NCBI GenBank assembly: GCA_003697125.1
Contig: RFGB01000142.1
Location: 1 to 50,268 of the forward strand
DNA: 50,268 nt
DNA from: Alphaproteobacteria bacterium
GTDB lineage: Bacteria > Pseudomonadota > Alphaproteobacteria > Rhodobacterales > Rhodobacteraceae
Reading direction: 5' to 3'
Below are positions 6,218-12,462 of this stretch, in pieces (positions within the stretch are counted from its first letter, which is position 1; every line of letters starts with the position of its first letter). A model generated the notes under the pieces. It did not search any database and was not told the DNA's origin. It was given only the letters and a program-made list of their open reading frames with translations. The translations under genes were made by a program, and so were the position numbers.

Positions 6218-7036
6218 TCACAGGGTGATGCGCATGCCGTCGCGGGCAAAGCCGATTCGGCCCCGGCCGGCGCCCAGCTCCGCCTCGGCCCGCGACAGGT
6301 CGGCATCCGTTCGGGTGGGGCTGTGGTGCACGATCAGCGTCCGGGCGACCCCCGCCGCCACGGCCAGCCCGCAGGCCTCGCGCCAGCTCGAATGCCCCCA
6401 CCCGACCCGGCGGCGGTATTCCTCGGCGGACCATGGCGCGTCATAGAGCATCAGGTCCGCACCGGCCACCGCCCGCGCAAGCCGGGCATCGATCTCGGGG
6501 GCGCCATGCTCGTGATCGGTGATGATGCACAGGCTGCGGCCGGCCGCCTCGATCCGGAAACCCGTGGCGCCGCCGGGATGGTTCAGCGGCACGGCCGAGA
6601 CCAGGAACGGCCCGAAACCGGCAGGGCCGGCGGGCAGGGCGCGCACCGGCACCGCATAGTCGCCCGGAATCCGCACCGGCCACAACGGCGGGGAATAGAG
6701 CCGCCCGAGCGCGTCTTCCACCTGTTCCACCGGCAATGCGGTCCACAGCGTCACCGCCGTGCGGCGCGCGATCAGCGGGGCGAAGAAGCCCAGGCCGATC
6801 AGATGGTCGAAATGCGGATGGGTCAGCAGCACGTCGAGCGCGTCCGGCGGCCCTTCGCGCATCAGCCTGTCGCCCAGCTCCCGCATGCCCGACCCGCAGT
6901 CGACCACCAGTGACCGCCCCGCGGCCGAGAGCTCGTAGCAGCTCGTGTCGCCGCCGAATCCGGCGGTCGCCGCGCCCGGCGCCGGGATCGAGCCGCGGCA
7001 TCCCCACACGGTCAGGCTGAGCGAGGCATCCGTCAT
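6218..7036 (-). CDS. MBL-fold metallohydrolase
   Basis: The 272-residue protein has a metallo-beta-lactamase fold. It opens with the strand and turn WGCRGSIPAPG then FGGDTSCYEL, and carries the metal-binding motif HPHFDH (H73, H75, D77, H78). Later ligand candidates are in LNHPGG and ITDHEHG. This subgroup resembles tRNase Z/PhnP/cyclic-nucleotide-phosphodiesterase-like hydrolases rather than beta-lactamases. No signal peptide is seen, so it should be cytoplasmic. Its start overlaps the stop of the upstream cyclic-nucleotide-binding gene by 4 bases, so it is the last gene of a coupled three-gene operon. A role in hydrolysing the ligand sensed by its neighbour is a guess. Confidence 0.85.
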   Translation of the reverse strand: MTDASLSLTVWGCRGSIPAPGAATAGFGGDTSCYELSAAGRSLVVDCGSGMRELGDRLMREGPPDALDVLLTHPHFDHLIGLGFFAPLIARRTAVTLWTALPVEQVEDALGRLYSPPLWPVRIPGDYAVPVRALPAGPAGFGPFLVSAVPLNHPGGATGFRIEAAGRSLCIITDHEHGAPEIDARLARAVAGADLMLYDAPWSAEEYRRRVGWGHSSWREACGLAVAAGVARTLIVHHSPTRTDADLSRAEAELGAGRGRIGFARDGMRITL

Positions 7037-7503
7037 CCGCCTGCCCGCATCTCCTCGAGCTCGGCGCGCGTGCGGGCCAGTTCCTGCGTCGTGCGTTCGA
7101 GCCGCACCGTCATCACCTTCAGCAGCTCCAGCGCCATGCAGGGAAATTCCTGCAGGCAGCGCATCAGGGTGGCGCGGTCCAGGCGCAGCGCCCGCAGGGT
7201 GCCGCAGGCGCGGACGGTGGCGCTTCGCGGGGTCTCGGTCAGCAGCGCCATCTCGCCCACGATGTCGCGCGGGCCAAGCCGGGCGACGGGGGTGTCATGC
7301 CCGCCCACCCGCACCAGCACCTCGGCCTCGCCCTCGAGGATCACATAGGCCGAATCACCCTCCTCTCCCTGCACCATCAGGGTCTCTCCCTCGTGGAAGG
7401 TGCGCGATTCGGCCATCAGGGCCATCAGCTTCAGCTGCCCCCTGTCGACCCGGCAGAACAGCGGCGATTCGGCCAGGATCTCGGTCTCGTTCGATATCTT
7501 CAT
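7033..7503 (-). CDS. Cyclic nucleotide-binding domain protein
   Basis: This 156-residue protein is essentially one cyclic-nucleotide-binding (CAP-family) domain. The phosphate-binding cassette is intact: GEMALL at 83-88 and PRSATV at 92-97 supply the Glu and Arg that contact the ribose and cyclic phosphate. There is no helix-turn-helix, so it is not a transcription factor of the CRP type; the C-terminal 40 residues are a charged helix (ELARTRAELEEM) suited to protein contact. It overlaps the ABC gene upstream and the MBL-fold gene downstream by 4 bases each, suggesting it is a cytosolic regulatory subunit for one of them. Which nucleotide it binds is unknown. Confidence 0.88.
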   Translation of the reverse strand: MKISNETEILAESPLFCRVDRGQLKLMALMAESRTFHEGETLMVQGEEGDSAYVILEGEAEVLVRVGGHDTPVARLGPRDIVGEMALLTETPRSATVRACGTLRALRLDRATLMRCLQEFPCMALELLKVMTVRLERTTQELARTRAELEEMRAGG

Positions 7504-10094
7504 GGCTCGACCTCCCCCTCGACTGCGTCTTCGGCGCGCCCGGGCGCGCCATCTTCCGCGGCTTCGTCGGCCGCCTCGATCCGCCCGCCGGCGATGCGCA
7601 CGACCCGGTCGACGTCGTCCGCGATGGCATCATGGTCGGTGGCGTGCACGATCGCCGCATCGGGCAGCATGCGGCGGATGTCGCGGCGCAGGGCGACCTG
7701 ATCCTCGGTGATGCCGTCGAGGACGCCATCGAGGATCAAGAGCGCCGGACGGCAGGCAAGCGCCCGCGCGAGGCCCAGCGCGCGGCGCTGGGATGTCGAC
7801 AGCGAGTTGCCGCCGGTTCCGACCTGGGTGCCGAGCCCCGCGCGCAGCACGAAACCCTCCATGTCGTGGTCGTCCAGAACCCGCTCCAGCCGCGCCTCGA
7901 TCGGGGGCGAGGCATCGCGCCGGTCCAGGCGCGGCCGGCCGCGCAGGATGTTTTCGACCAGCGGGCATCCCGGAACATATCCGCCGCTGTAGAAGCGGGT
8001 GAAGGGGCGGGCGGGACGGAAGGCGCGGGCGATGCGCTGGCGCGCCGCGACGATTCGCTGACGGCGCGCGGGGTCGTCGAGCACGCCCAGCCGGTGGCGC
8101 AGCGGCACCAGGCGGAAGGCGAGGCGGGCCAGGTCCAGGCGGTCGGCGCGGCCCAGCCGCCCGATGCCCCGCCGGGCGCGCAGCAGGATCGCCGCATAGT
8201 CGTCGCGCTCGGACGGCTCGATCAGACCGATGCGGTCGAGCAGGGCGGAATCCGGCCCCAGCGAGCCGGTCAGTTCCTGAAGCGTGCGCGCTGCCTCCAG
8301 CCCGATCTGCACCACTTCCTCGGCGATGCCGGCGGTCTCCAGCGCCGCGCGCACCGCCGGATCCTCGCAGAAGCATTCCAGATCCGCCGGATCGTCGGGG
8401 GCGCCGAAGAACAGGTTCTCCCCAAGGCTGTAATTCTCGAGGAACCTGTCGGGGTCCCAGTGCTCGATCATCGCCTCCAGCCCGGCATCCCCGGTCTCGG
8501 CGGCCAGCGCCGCCCGGGCCGCCAGGGCCGCCTCGACCAGAACCGGTTCCCGGCGCGGATCGATCACCACGCCAAGACCGCGCCGGAAGAGATCCTCGCG
8601 CAGCCCCACCAGAGACAGGATCCCGATCGCGAAGCTGTCGAATTCCTCGCGCCCCTCGACCCCGGCGCGGGCATAGTCCACCCAGTCCATTTCGGGGCTG
8701 TCGGGCGGCGCGCCGGTGATGCGGGCCTCGCGCTCGCGCCGCTCCCAGTCTTCGGGGCGGGGACCCGAACCGCGATCGGCCAGCACGAAATAGGCCACCG
8801 CATCGCGCAGCGTGCCGCGCATCACATGCGGCGCGCGATGGGCGATGGCGATGTCGCGGACCGCCCGCACGAGCAGATCCCGCCCCTGCTGGTCGCCCAC
8901 CCGGATGCTGCCCGATTCCGGCATGTCCAGCCCCGCGAGGATGCGCACCAGCGCGCCGCGGCCGGCCTCCTCCTCGCCGAGCACCAGGACCGACTGCCCG
9001 GGCTTCAGGGTGAGCGAGGCGCCGCTGAGCCCGGCATGGCCCGGGAGGGAGACGTCGGAGAGGGCGATCTCGCGATCGCGCAGCGACACGGGCTCGGCGG
9101 GCGGCGGCAGCGGCTCGCCGCCATAGGTGGCGACCACGGCATCGTAGCGGGCGGAGATGTCGGAATAGGTCTGGTAGAAGTTCAGAAGCTCGCGCCAGGG
9201 GGCGGCGATGTCCTTGTAGGCGGCGAGGATGGCGACCAGAGCGCCGAGATTCATCTGACCCTTGATGACCAGATAGCCGCCAAAGGAATAGAAAAAGAAC
9301 GGCGTGACGTTGTTGATGACGTTGTTGGCGAATTTTATCGCGTATTTCAGCAGAAAGATACGATAGCGTATCCTGAAGTTGTGATACAGCCGGTCGGACA
9401 CCTTGGCCAGATGCCAGTTTCTGGCGCCGGCGACCCGCATGTCGTCGATGCCGGTGATGGTTTCCGAGATCTCGGCCGTCATCTTGCGGATGTTCCGGAT
9501 CCGCGCCTGGACGAGGCGCACCACGATGCGCTGCACCTTGGGCACGACATAGGCCTGCACCGGAAACAGGATGATCGCCGCCAGGCCAAGCACCGGATCC
9601 TGGGCGATGATGAAGCCCAGATAGACGATCAGCTGGCCGCCCTGATAGACCGGCGTGGCGACGATCTCGCCGGCGAAGCCGCCGATCGGCTCCACCTCGG
9701 CGGTGATGATCTGCACGACCTCGCCCGGGCTGGTCAGACGCAGCCGGCGCGGCGGCAGCCGTGTCACGCGGTCGAAGACCCCGTGGCGCAGCCGGCGCAG
9801 GATCCGCTCTCCGGTCAGGCCCTTGGTGACGTTGATGTAGTATTTCACCCCGTTGTTGAGGAAGATCATCGCGAGCAGCAGGCCGCACAGCGCGACGAGA
9901 TACTGCAGCTGTTCAAGCTCCAGCCCCAGGACGACCTTGGGAAAGGCGGTCCCGCGCAGGGCACCGTTGACGATTTCCTTGGGGATGTAGAGCGCGGCGA
10001 GGATCAGCGGGAAGGACAGGAAGGAACCCAGCACGATCAGCAGCTGCCAGCGCCAGGAATGCGCCCAGACGAACCGAAGCAGCGTGCGCTCCAC
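7500..10094 (-). CDS. ABC-type exporter with degenerate ATPase domain
   Basis: The 864-residue protein has an ABC exporter membrane domain (residues 1-320; hydrophobic segments near 18-36, 64-80, 150-182 and 256-292) fused to an ABC nucleotide-binding domain. The ATPase is clearly altered. The P-loop reads GEEEAGRG (373-380), with Arg for the invariant Lys and Gly for Ser. The signature is LSTSQ (765-769). Walker B is ALLILDG (784-790), with Gly for the catalytic Glu. About 300 residues (430-745) lie between the Q-loop region and the signature, far more than usual, and include two segments resembling the post-Q-loop motif (YSLGENLFFGAP, PLVENILRGRP). A low-GC patch lies near 9290-9370. It heads a three-gene overlapping operon. 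Substrate unknown. Confidence 0.85.
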   Translation of the reverse strand: MERTLLRFVWAHSWRWQLLIVLGSFLSFPLILAALYIPKEIVNGALRGTAFPKVVLGLELEQLQYLVALCGLLLAMIFLNNGVKYYINVTKGLTGERILRRLRHGVFDRVTRLPPRRLRLTSPGEVVQIITAEVEPIGGFAGEIVATPVYQGGQLIVYLGFIIAQDPVLGLAAIILFPVQAYVVPKVQRIVVRLVQARIRNIRKMTAEISETITGIDDMRVAGARNWHLAKVSDRLYHNFRIRYRIFLLKYAIKFANNVINNVTPFFFYSFGGYLVIKGQMNLGALVAILAAYKDIAAPWRELLNFYQTYSDISARYDAVVATYGGEPLPPPAEPVSLRDREIALSDVSLPGHAGLSGASLTLKPGQSVLVLGEEEAGRGALVRILAGLDMPESGSIRVGDQQGRDLLVRAVRDIAIAHRAPHVMRGTLRDAVAYFVLADRGSGPRPEDWERREREARITGAPPDSPEMDWVDYARAGVEGREEFDSFAIGILSLVGLREDLFRRGLGVVIDPRREPVLVEAALAARAALAAETGDAGLEAMIEHWDPDRFLENYSLGENLFFGAPDDPADLECFCEDPAVRAALETAGIAEEVVQIGLEAARTLQELTGSLGPDSALLDRIGLIEPSERDDYAAILLRARRGIGRLGRADRLDLARLAFRLVPLRHRLGVLDDPARRQRIVAARQRIARAFRPARPFTRFYSGGYVPGCPLVENILRGRPRLDRRDASPPIEARLERVLDDHDMEGFVLRAGLGTQVGTGGNSLSTSQRRALGLARALACRPALLILDGVLDGITEDQVALRRDIRRMLPDAAIVHATDHDAIADDVDRVVRIAGGRIEAADEAAEDGAPGRAEDAVEGEVEP

Positions 10095-10171: not shown

Positions 10172-10561
10172 CTACAGGCCGGGCCCGTCGGGCCCCGGGC
10201 GCAGATCCTCGGCAAAGCACAGGATGTTGCCGTCGGGGTCGGTCCAGAGCACCTCGCGGCAGCCCCATGGCCGGTCCTCGGGTCCGTCGACGATGCCGCC
10301 CTGGGCGCGGGCGAGTTCGGCCAGCGCCGCGGCGTCATCGACGAAGAGATAGGCCGCCCAGCCTTCCTGGGGCGAGACGCTGGCGGCGCGGCGCAGCGCC
10401 AGCGTGACCGCGCCCAGGCGGAGGATGCCGAAGGTTTCCGCCCCGTTCGCGTCGCGCCAGAATCCGGCGGCGGTGAAGCCGAACAGCCGCCCGAGCCGCG
10501 CCGCCGTATCGGCGGGATCGGTGCAGGGCAGGCAGGGCATCGCGCGCAGACCGGTGGGCAT
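10172..10561 (-). CDS. VOC (glyoxalase/bleomycin-resistance) family protein
   Basis: A 129-residue single-copy vicinal-oxygen-chelate fold protein. The betaalphabetabetabeta modules are recognisable: an N-terminal strand with AARLGRLFGF, a mid strand ILRLGAVTLAL, and the C-terminal signature WTDPDGNILCFAED typical of VOC proteins. Members include glyoxalases, dioxygenases and antibiotic-binding proteins, and nothing here selects among them. It lies 77 bp upstream of the ABC gene on the same strand and could share its transcript. The alternative ATG at residue 8 is possible. Confidence 0.8.
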   Translation of the reverse strand: MPTGLRAMPCLPCTDPADTAARLGRLFGFTAAGFWRDANGAETFGILRLGAVTLALRRAASVSPQEGWAAYLFVDDAAALAELARAQGGIVDGPEDRPWGCREVLWTDPDGNILCFAEDLRPGPDGPGL

Positions 10562-10614
10562 GGGTCAGATCCCGGCCCGGTGCCCGCCCGCCCCGCGCCC
10601 GGCCCGCCCGGCGG

Positions 10615-11319
10615 TCATCGGCCTTCCGCGGCGCCGTCCGGCTCCGATCTCCCTGCGGTGCCCGCCGGCTCGGCGGGGGCCTTCGCGGCCACGCCGACCT
10701 GGGCGGCGCGCAGCAGCCGGCCGGCGATGGTGAAGCCTTCGGCGATCACCTGGATGATGGTCCCGGGCTCGGCCCCCTGGACGGGCGCCTCGAACATCGC
10801 CTGGTGCAGGTTGGGGTCGAAGCGGTCGCCGATGGCGGGGCGGATCGCCTCGATGCGGTGCTTGGCGAAGGCCGAGAGCAGTTCGCGCTGGGTCAGCTCG
10901 ATGCCCTCGATGAACGCCCCGAAGGCGGCGCGATGCTGATCCTCGACCATGGCAAGCGCGCGGGCAAGGTTGTCATGGACCGGCAGCAGGTCCCGCGCCA
11001 GACGGGCCCCGCCAAAGGCCTCGGCGTCGCGGCGGTCACGCTCGGCGCGCTTGCGGGTATTCTCGGCCTCGGCCAGCGCGCGCAGCAGCCTTTCGCGCAG
11101 CTCGTCACGCTCGGCGGTCAGGGTCATGATCTCGCTCTCGCGCGGGTCGGGCCCGCCATCCTGCGCGGCCGTGGCCGGCCCGGCGGCCGCCGCGGCATCG
11201 GCGGCGGCCGCGGCCGCCGCGTCCGGTGCGGCCGCTTCGGCGGGGCTGCCGGCGGGGTCCGCCTCGGGGCTGACCGCGGGCTGTTCCTTGTCCGTCTTCT
11301 TCGGCTTCATCCTGCTCAT
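10615..11319 (-). CDS. grpE: Nucleotide exchange factor GrpE
   Basis: GrpE releases ADP from DnaK. The 234-residue protein has a long acidic, Ala-rich disordered N-terminus (about 1-60), the coiled-coil dimerisation helix (ERDELRERLLRALAEAENTR), and the C-terminal beta domain with the family signature near NLHQAMFEAP and GTIIQVIAEGF. A low-complexity Ala/Pro tail follows. The ATG at 11319 overlaps the hrcA stop by 4 bases; an in-frame ATG at 11310 is also possible. Co-transcription with hrcA links it to the heat-shock regulon. Confidence 0.96.
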   Translation of the reverse strand: MSRMKPKKTDKEQPAVSPEADPAGSPAEAAAPDAAAAAAADAAAAAGPATAAQDGGPDPRESEIMTLTAERDELRERLLRALAEAENTRKRAERDRRDAEAFGGARLARDLLPVHDNLARALAMVEDQHRAAFGAFIEGIELTQRELLSAFAKHRIEAIRPAIGDRFDPNLHQAMFEAPVQGAEPGTIIQVIAEGFTIAGRLLRAAQVGVAAKAPAEPAGTAGRSEPDGAAEGR

Positions 11320-12389
11320 CTTCCCACTCGCGGACGCTCGGACACCAGGCGCCCGACCAGTCGGGCGGTGTAATCGACGATGGGCACGATGCGGCCATAG
11401 TTCAGCCGCGTCGGCCCGATGACGCCGAGCGCGCCGATGATTCTCCGCTCGGCGTTCATATAGGGAGAAATGACCAGAGAGGAACCGGAAAGCGAGAAGA
11501 GCTTGTTTTCCGAGCCGATGAAGATGCGCACGCCTTCGCCTCCCTCAGTGAGGTCGAGCAGCTGGGCGATGTCCTGCTTGCGTTCCAGATCGTCGAAGAG
11601 CTGGCGGATGCGGTCGAGATCCTCGCCGGACACGCCCTCGAGCAGATTGGCGCGGCCGCGCACGATCAGCCTTGCGGGCAGCGAGTCCTGCCCGCCTTCC
11701 CAGATCGCGACGCCCTGATCGACCAGGGTCTGGGCCAGCTCGTCGAGCTCGCGGCGCCGCTCGGCGATCTCGCGCTGCATGACGTCGCGCAGCTGGCCGA
11801 GCGTGCGCCCGCGCAGCAATGCGTTGAGGAAGTTCGACGCGGTCTGCATGGCCGAGGGGGTCATGCCCGGCGGCGGCGCGAACAGGCGGTTCTCGACATG
11901 CCCGTCCTCGGTCACGAGGATCGCCAGCGCGTTCTCGGGCGAGAGGGGCACGAACTCGATATGCCGGATCGGCGCCTCATGCTTGGGCGACAGCACGAGG
12001 CTTGCGCCATGGGTCAGGCCCGACAGCATTTCGCCGGCGCGGTCCAGCACATCGGCGATGTCGGGATCGGGCTGGCCCAGCCGCGCCTCGATCTCGCGCC
12101 GCTCCTCCTCGGAAAGATCGCCGATCTCCAGCAGACCGTCCACGAACAGCCGCAGGCCGAATTCGGTGGGAACCCGCCCGGCGGACACATGGGGGCTGCC
12201 CAGAAGCCCCATCTCCTCCAGATCCTGCATCACGTTGCGGATCGTGGCGGGGGACAGCTTCTCGGGGCTTGAGCGCGACAGCGTGCGGGAGCCGACCGGT
12301 TCGCCGGTCTCCAGATAGGTCTCGACGAGCTGCCGGAATATGGTCCGGCTGCGCTCGTTGAGCTGCGAGAGAACCGAGATGTCCGTCAT
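11316..12389 (-). CDS. hrcA: Heat-inducible transcription repressor HrcA
   Basis: HrcA represses chaperone operons by binding CIRCE sites with help from GroEL. The 357-residue protein has the N-terminal winged helix (SQLNERSRTIFRQLVETYLE, then GEPVGSRTLS and SPATIRNVMQDLE), the GAF-like domain and the C-terminal GENELNSLSLV-type segment. The frame is open to an ATG at 12443, but that would add 18 residues with no family similarity, and the ATG at 12389 starts exactly at the conserved MTDISVL. No CIRCE element is visible upstream; instead a perfect FNR-type box lies 38 bases before the start. It is followed by overlapping grpE. Confidence 0.96.
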   Translation of the reverse strand: MTDISVLSQLNERSRTIFRQLVETYLETGEPVGSRTLSRSSPEKLSPATIRNVMQDLEEMGLLGSPHVSAGRVPTEFGLRLFVDGLLEIGDLSEEERREIEARLGQPDPDIADVLDRAGEMLSGLTHGASLVLSPKHEAPIRHIEFVPLSPENALAILVTEDGHVENRLFAPPPGMTPSAMQTASNFLNALLRGRTLGQLRDVMQREIAERRRELDELAQTLVDQGVAIWEGGQDSLPARLIVRGRANLLEGVSGEDLDRIRQLFDDLERKQDIAQLLDLTEGGEGVRIFIGSENKLFSLSGSSLVISPYMNAERRIIGALGVIGPTRLNYGRIVPIVDYTARLVGRLVSERPRVGR

Positions 12390-12426
12390 GGCCTTGACCG
12401 GGAATGCATCGCGGGCGCAGTATCGC

Positions 12427-12440
12427 TTGATTGCAATCAA
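12427..12440. promoter_or_regulatory. Perfect FNR/FnrL-type box upstream of hrcA
   Basis: TTGATTGCAATCAA is a perfect 14-base palindrome and an exact match to the FNR/FnrL/Dnr consensus TTGAT-N4-ATCAA. It lies 38-51 bases before the hrcA start and 22 bases after the stop of the sterol-desaturase-family gene, so hrcA-grpE is the only adjacent target. A possible -10 (GATACT) two bases downstream on the minus strand would put the site in the promoter spacer, a repressing position. Confidence 0.65.
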
Positions 12441-12462
12441 CATAGTGGGGCGCGCCGCGCGG

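Follow-up and report, generated by a model that had tools for sequence, protein, structure and literature searches.

A degenerate ABC exporter paired with a cyclic nucleotide-binding protein in Alphaproteobacteria, and its possible link to glycosyltransferase genes

Organisation of the locus

The window analysed here is a 50,268-nucleotide stretch of an alphaproteobacterial genome (family Rhodobacteraceae, contig RFGB01000142.1). Three of its genes encode a protein with the fold of an ATP-binding cassette (ABC) exporter, a small protein with a single cyclic nucleotide-binding domain (CNB) and a hydrolase of the metallo-β-lactamase (MBL) fold (Table 1). The ABC protein and the CNB form a pair that is conserved well beyond this genome, and most genomes that carry it also carry genes for GT28 glycosyltransferases. 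Both junctions of the trio, MBL/CNB and CNB/ABC, read ATGA, and the four-base overlaps that a sequence-only reading of the window had described are exact in their coordinates. The same reading held that the three proteins are thereby made in fixed proportions, which the overlaps do not support: grpE and hrcA in the same window overlap in this way too, so that such junctions are ordinary here and suggest coupled translation at most. Its account of the proteins themselves, namely a non-hydrolysing exporter fold, a lone CNB with an intact phosphate cassette and a hydrolase of a fold that includes nucleotide phosphodiesterases, agrees with the comparisons reported below.

Table 1. Features of the locus and of its upstream flank in the window
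Feature	Position	Strand	Size	Assignment and remarks
MBL-fold hydrolase	6218-7036	-	272 aa	PF12706 (Lactamase_B_2), Pfam 4.6e-19; THPHFDH metal motif; candidate atypical class-II cyclic-nucleotide phosphodiesterase
CNB, single-domain protein	7033-7503	-	156 aa	PF00027 (cNMP_binding), 6.1e-21
Pseudo-ABC exporter	7500-10094	-	864 aa	GTG start; PF00664 (ABC_membrane), 5.3e-18, and split PF00005 (ABC_tran); transmembrane region ~residues 1-325, degenerate ATPase domain ~340-845
All-helical insert in ABC ATPase domain	7995-8783	-	~260 residues	Residues 438-700
Glyoxalase/VOC-fold protein	10172-10561	-		PF00903, 1.6e-6; 77 bases upstream of the trio
hrcA-grpE-VOC run	10172-12443	-		Upstream of the trio
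grpE/hrcA overlap	11316-11319	-	4 bases	

Conservation of the ABC-CNB pair

The ABC protein was found in 98 of the 289 alphaproteobacterial genomes sampled at class level and in 53 of 248 genomes of the window's own family, as well as on many Sinorhizobium and Rhizobium plasmids. Among 96 ABC loci, the CNB gene lies downstream in 82 and is fused to the ABC gene in 9; a CNB is thus fused or within 700 bases downstream in 91 of 96 loci (90 of 95 distinct ones, L201, whose contig has the same length, being the same locus as L086). This conservation rules out a chance pairing or the oddity of a single genome. Five loci gave no adjacent or fused CNB call: the sequence of L119 ends 262 bases after the ABC gene, L204 is ambiguous at the 700-base threshold, and L115, L131 and L132 have no adjacent CNB. 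In L115 (1592-12132) and L131 (2084-12634), both from gammaproteobacterial metagenome-assembled genomes (MAGs), a CNB gene lies about 7 kb upstream of the ABC gene, beyond GT28/GT4 genes and with a cyclase near it, and these two loci hold the same parts in another order.

A branch within the window's family (L025, L026, L027, L029 and L203) carries the ABC protein and the CNB as one fused protein of about 1000-1200 aa, often in two copies per genome, mostly with the signature LPxxFQE and with a CNB cassette that has partly degenerated (Asp in place of Glu). Some records sit unexpectedly on the ABC tree: L079, titled Anaerolineae (Chloroflexota), branches within the alphaproteobacterial family and is probably a mis-binned contig, and L080 and L105, MAG loci that share the title 'Rhizobium sp. 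Q54', lie in different parts of the tree among Rhodospirillales-like rows, which leaves their labels or bins doubtful.

The exporter fold and its lost ATPase motifs

An AlphaFold2 model of the ABC protein (55 sequences) reached a mean pLDDT of 84 and a pTM of 0.78, and its 50 best Foldseek matches are ABC proteins, nearly all of them exporters. Together with PF00664, these comparisons indicate the architecture of type IV (ABCB-like) exporters, with a six-helix transmembrane domain (TMD; helices counted from the secondary structure of the model) and a C-terminal nucleotide-binding domain, in which the stretches on either side of residues ~438-700 each match ABC models on their own. The catalytic motif set of these exporters (Walker A Lys-Ser/Thr, Walker B Asp-Glu, signature and H-loop) is incomplete in the window protein. 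Walker A reads GEEEAGRG, with Lys replaced by Arg and Ser/Thr by Gly; the signature is LSTSQ; Walker B reads ILDG, with Asp kept and the catalytic Glu replaced by Gly; and the H-loop lacks a His where one is expected. Of 153 family members, 150 have lost at least one of the four Walker residues tested, with Asp or Glu for the Walker A Ser/Thr in 77 and Asn for the Walker B Asp in 55. Judged by sequence, the degeneracy is a family trait and not local decay, and these losses, in the window and in its relatives, would make the protein a member of the type IV exporters by fold and not as a functional ATPase.

The protein could nevertheless be an active exporter with a divergent ATPase, moving a glycolipid or an oligosaccharide under the tuning of the CNB, while the MBL does another job. 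Its exporter fold, the retention of all four Walker residues in three members and its position next to glycosyltransferase genes would all fit, but the absence from the window protein of the Walker A Lys and Ser/Thr, the catalytic Glu and the H-loop His, and the losses in the other 150 members, make this improbable in our view. L139 (9941-12640) keeps Walker A GK-T, LSGAQ and Walker B DE; it may still be an active ATPase and would be a useful comparison protein.

Invariant positions concentrate in residues 13-317, and this best-conserved transmembrane region suggests a specific job in the membrane. Relatives with a TMD only (about 320-440 aa, no ATPase domain matched) were also seen (L030:6935-8005, L031:7098-8144 and L212-L217), often as a second match in genomes that have the full-length protein. 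A globin-like gene, recognised by eye, lies near them in L030 and L031. No neighbour is conserved across the nine loci compared, and we therefore dropped the TMD-only relatives as a second conserved system.

The helical insert of about 260 residues went unmentioned in the sequence-only reading. It has no Pfam match in the window protein (relatives give scattered weak ones only) and no Foldseek match at E<=0.001, and was rejected as a known domain on these grounds. When profiles of residues 538-625 and 690-775 were compared, residues 540-603 of the insert matched residues 696-755 of the same protein (probability 98.3%, E 2.3e-14), while non-overlapping control regions scored below 2%. By VIA-align, the C-terminal half of the insert (model residues ~111-254) superposes on helical subdomains of ABC exporters over 65-75 residues at ~3 Å, with low Z scores (3.5-4.3 for the top ten). 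Because of the self-match, and because the structural matches are mainly to ABC helical subdomains, we read the insert as probably carrying a second, duplicated copy of the ATPase domain's own helical subdomain, although the structural part of the match could also reflect a common helical arrangement.

The cyclic nucleotide-binding partner

The CNB of the window has an intact phosphate cassette, VGEMALLTETPRSATV, with the Glu and Arg expected of cNMP-binding domains. Cassette residues are strongly conserved among separate CNBs, with Gly in 111, Glu in 107 and Arg in all of 112 sequences. PF00027 is the sole Pfam match at E<=1 in the 156 residues; no DNA-binding domain was matched, nor the C-terminal helix-turn-helix of CRP/FNR regulators. 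Its best PDB match, and nearest solved protein, is the RI-alpha subunit of protein kinase A (PKA), at 2.2e-29. A ligand other than a cyclic mononucleotide, such as ppGpp or another metabolite, has a precedent in HetC (PMC10986499). We give it little credence here, in view of the PKA-like cassette with its conserved Glu and Arg, the closeness to RI-alpha and the presence of a cyclase in the operon of relatives.

Co-occurrence with glycosyltransferase genes

Neighbourhoods were mapped by clustering the genes around 80 named loci, with a crude gene caller and with names taken from the Pfam matches of one representative per cluster. A recurrent set emerged, divergent from the ABC-CNB pair, in which the genes of an Opp-type importer stand with two GT4 genes and two or three that are GT28-like; a histidine phosphatase is sometimes present as well. 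Two clusters with no Pfam match (U819 and U798) are probably opposite-strand shadow open reading frames (ORFs) of the glycosyltransferase genes and were ignored. A search of the same 289 genomes with one of the GT28-like proteins (L069:8485-9795) gave 91 genomes that hold it together with the ABC protein, 7 with the ABC protein only, 2 with GT28 only and 189 with neither (phi 0.93; Fisher p 7e-64, a value that ignores shared ancestry). The two genes lie at most 8 kb apart in 64 of 89 genomes and are separate in 25. Rhizobium and Sinorhizobium plasmids bear cyclase-Opp-glycosyltransferase-ABC-CNB stretches, and in the window genome the GT28/GT4 genes lie on another contig (C191). The genomic partnership of the ABC protein with the GT28/GT4 cluster is thus near-obligate.

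This association would also fit a pseudo-ABC protein that serves as an assembly scaffold or nucleotide-responsive anchor of a glycosyltransferase complex, with cAMP toggling glycan synthesis and nothing being transported. The strength of the co-occurrence, the lost catalytic residues and the existence of TMD-only relatives speak for such a scaffold, but conservation within the protein is strongest in the transmembrane region, and we think this explanation has a poor chance of being the right one.

The MBL-fold hydrolase and its cyclase neighbours

The MBL gene lies directly downstream of the CNB gene in the window, in 17 distinct loci and in a partial one at a contig end in a sister genome. 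On the ABC tree these loci group together (2 changes, compared with a mean of 17.5 after shuffling), so much of the linkage is inherited synteny. As the MBL is absent beside most ABC-CNB pairs, it does not belong to the core, and we rejected it as an obligatory third member. The linkage nevertheless seems to be more than drift, because the trio is intact in loci that lack the glycosyltransferase genes (window, L021 and L068) or have them rearranged (L078 and L129), and because two distant MAG loci (L125 and L140) have a similar MBL in divergent orientation upstream of the ABC gene. Ten loci have a class III cyclase gene downstream of the MBL and in the same orientation, and an SDR gene often comes next. 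They are from Breoghania, Pseudovibrio (3), Stappia (2), Roseibium, a Rhodobiaceae MAG, a Tepidamorphaceae MAG and Afifella; in L071 one other called ORF stands between MBL and cyclase. The Stappia indica cyclase has an adenylate-type Lys (KFLGD) and a Thr at the second base-selecting site, a pattern that we take to be that of class IIIb. It has Lys where the transition-state Arg is usual, so its activity is presumptive.

The best PDB matches of the MBL are 1zkp (2.2e-9) and 6kns (2.5e-8; 37 bits). The latter is YhfI, which has been grouped with Rv1339 and Corynebacterium glutamicum CpdA as atypical class-II phosphodiesterases, defined by the motif [T/S]HXHXDH (PMC9293780). The window MBL has this motif, as THPHFDH, in its PF12706 domain, and metal-ligand positions are kept in at least 90% of 29 sequences. 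The NF041851 equivalog for these enzymes gave 61 bits against a cut-off of 400, and RNase Z profiles matched with similarly weak strength. Scores for the GPMC system stay below the NF038231 and NF038229 cut-offs (window MBL, 17.8 bits of 360; neighbouring GT4 proteins of L069, 42.7 and 47.5 bits of 400). Since no NCBIfam model reaches its cut-off, phosphodiesterase activity of the MBL is proposed as a hypothesis.

The MBL could instead be a hydrolase unrelated to signalling (for example tRNase Z-like or lactonase-like) that stays in the operon by synteny, as its single cluster on the tree, its absence from most loci and the RNase Z matches would allow. Its persistence with the pair where the glycosyltransferase neighbourhood is gone or rearranged, the cyclase that comes next in ten loci and the divergent copies in distant MAGs argue otherwise, and we consider such an unrelated role somewhat unlikely.

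Flanking genes

The trio is flanked by mutS on one side and by the VOC-grpE-hrcA run on the other (mutS, grpE and hrcA were named by reading their translations, VOC by Pfam). From hrcA onwards, a four-base overlap and gaps of 53 and 77 bases lead on the same strand to the trio, and these short distances mean that the trio could be transcribed by read-through from the heat-shock operon. The VOC gene may be co-transcribed with the trio and lies outside the conserved unit; a search of nine relative loci gave no homolog of it at E<=1e-6. No match was found in a phage collection, and a phage-encoded origin was rejected on that ground.

Proposed mechanism

We tentatively propose that the locus encodes a membrane switch under cyclic nucleotide control, based on an ABC exporter that has lost ATP hydrolysis and serving the glycosyltransferase system, with the MBL as its reset; we are slightly less inclined to trust this proposal than to doubt it. 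In such a switch, a class III adenylate cyclase, whose gene stands beside the MBL in Stappiaceae and their kin and elsewhere in the window genome, would make cAMP. The small CNB protein, with its conserved pocket, would bind cAMP or a related nucleotide. Once loaded, it may dock on the inert ATPase domain, with the extra helical subdomain as a possible site, and shift the conformation of the transmembrane dimer, a contact suggested by gene adjacency and natural fusions. The transmembrane part would then act as a gate, a flippase-like path or a scaffold for the glycoconjugate of the GT28/GT4 cluster, as co-occurrence and gene order suggest, and the MBL, to judge from its sequence affinity and position, would degrade the nucleotide and reset the switch. 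A more ambitious version strikes us as rather doubtful. It describes a signalling effector in which the dimer of a dead exporter with a duplicated helical subdomain is opened or closed by a cAMP-loaded CNB instead of by ATP and gates a dedicated glycosyltransferase output, so that cyclase, receptor, effector and phosphodiesterase would form one module in several alphaproteobacterial families.

Several observations weigh against the proposed switch. The MBL is missing beside most pairs, and both phosphodiesterase and RNase Z models of NCBIfam score it far below their cut-offs. The window genome's two Guanylate_cyc matches are on other contigs, not near the trio. A few members are nearly intact as ATPases, L139 most of all. 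Fused CNBs of the Rhodobacteraceae type often have lost the cassette Glu to Asp, so a nucleotide ligand may not be universal, and CNB domains can bind other ligands, as that of HetC binds ppGpp (PMC10986499). Finally, the co-occurrence statistic takes no account of shared ancestry.

Of the trio that the sequence-only reading treated as one unit, the ABC and CNB genes are kept together or fused across Alphaproteobacteria and the MBL recurs, mainly in one clade. The trio is conserved in relatives, and the lack of such conservation, which that reading had named as a refutation, was thus not seen. Its idea of a signalling device is strengthened by the conserved pair and by the ten loci with a cyclase after the MBL. 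A device standing alone is now the less likely reading, as the near-obligate partnership with GT28/GT4 genes moves the likely purpose to the control of a glycan system. The association suggests an undescribed messenger-controlled surface-sugar system. If this is true, cAMP has a membrane effector in these bacteria besides CRP-type transcription, in the form of an ABC exporter in which a second-messenger receptor has taken the place of the ATP engine. The uncharacterised GT28/GT4 glycan cluster is also marked as a partner of the ABC protein, so that its function can be tested directly by gene deletion.

Comparison with known systems

In open-access papers, where absence is no proof, we came across no account of a family in which a degenerate ATPase domain with an insert goes together with a PKA-like CNB partner and glycosyltransferase co-occurrence, and nothing relevant to the trio beyond HetC and Rv1339. 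ABC exporters with CNB domains are already known: HetC of Nostoc PCC 7120 likewise couples the two, and both are needed for its function (PMC10986499). HetC, however, has an essential ATPase, a C39 peptidase and an N-terminal CNB that binds ppGpp (PMC10986499). The present family differs in its degenerate ATPase, which holds a large insert, and in its CNB, which is encoded separately downstream or fused at the C-terminus; no C39 match was found. The MBL resembles the atypical class-II phosphodiesterases Rv1339, YhfI and C. glutamicum CpdA in fold, in PF12706 and in the [T/S]HXHXDH motif (PMC9293780), but its overall similarity to them is low, as the 6kns and NF041851 scores given above indicate. 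The ABC and CNB proteins also show weak profile similarity to NHLP/bacteriocin ABC exporters with CNB partners (TIGR03796 and TIGR03896), but with scores far under the cut-offs (95.6 of 853 for TIGR03796; 41.4 of 161), and no peptidase or peptide-maturation genes were seen among the conserved neighbours of the pair.

CFTR and SUR are ABC folds used as a channel or a channel regulator, and they bind ATP. The family described here has lost the Walker motifs themselves, and a PKA-like CNB protein is its presumed regulator. The only homology seen is that among ABC exporters; what the family would share with CFTR and SUR is the use of an ABC exporter fold for something other than pumping, under the control of a nucleotide.

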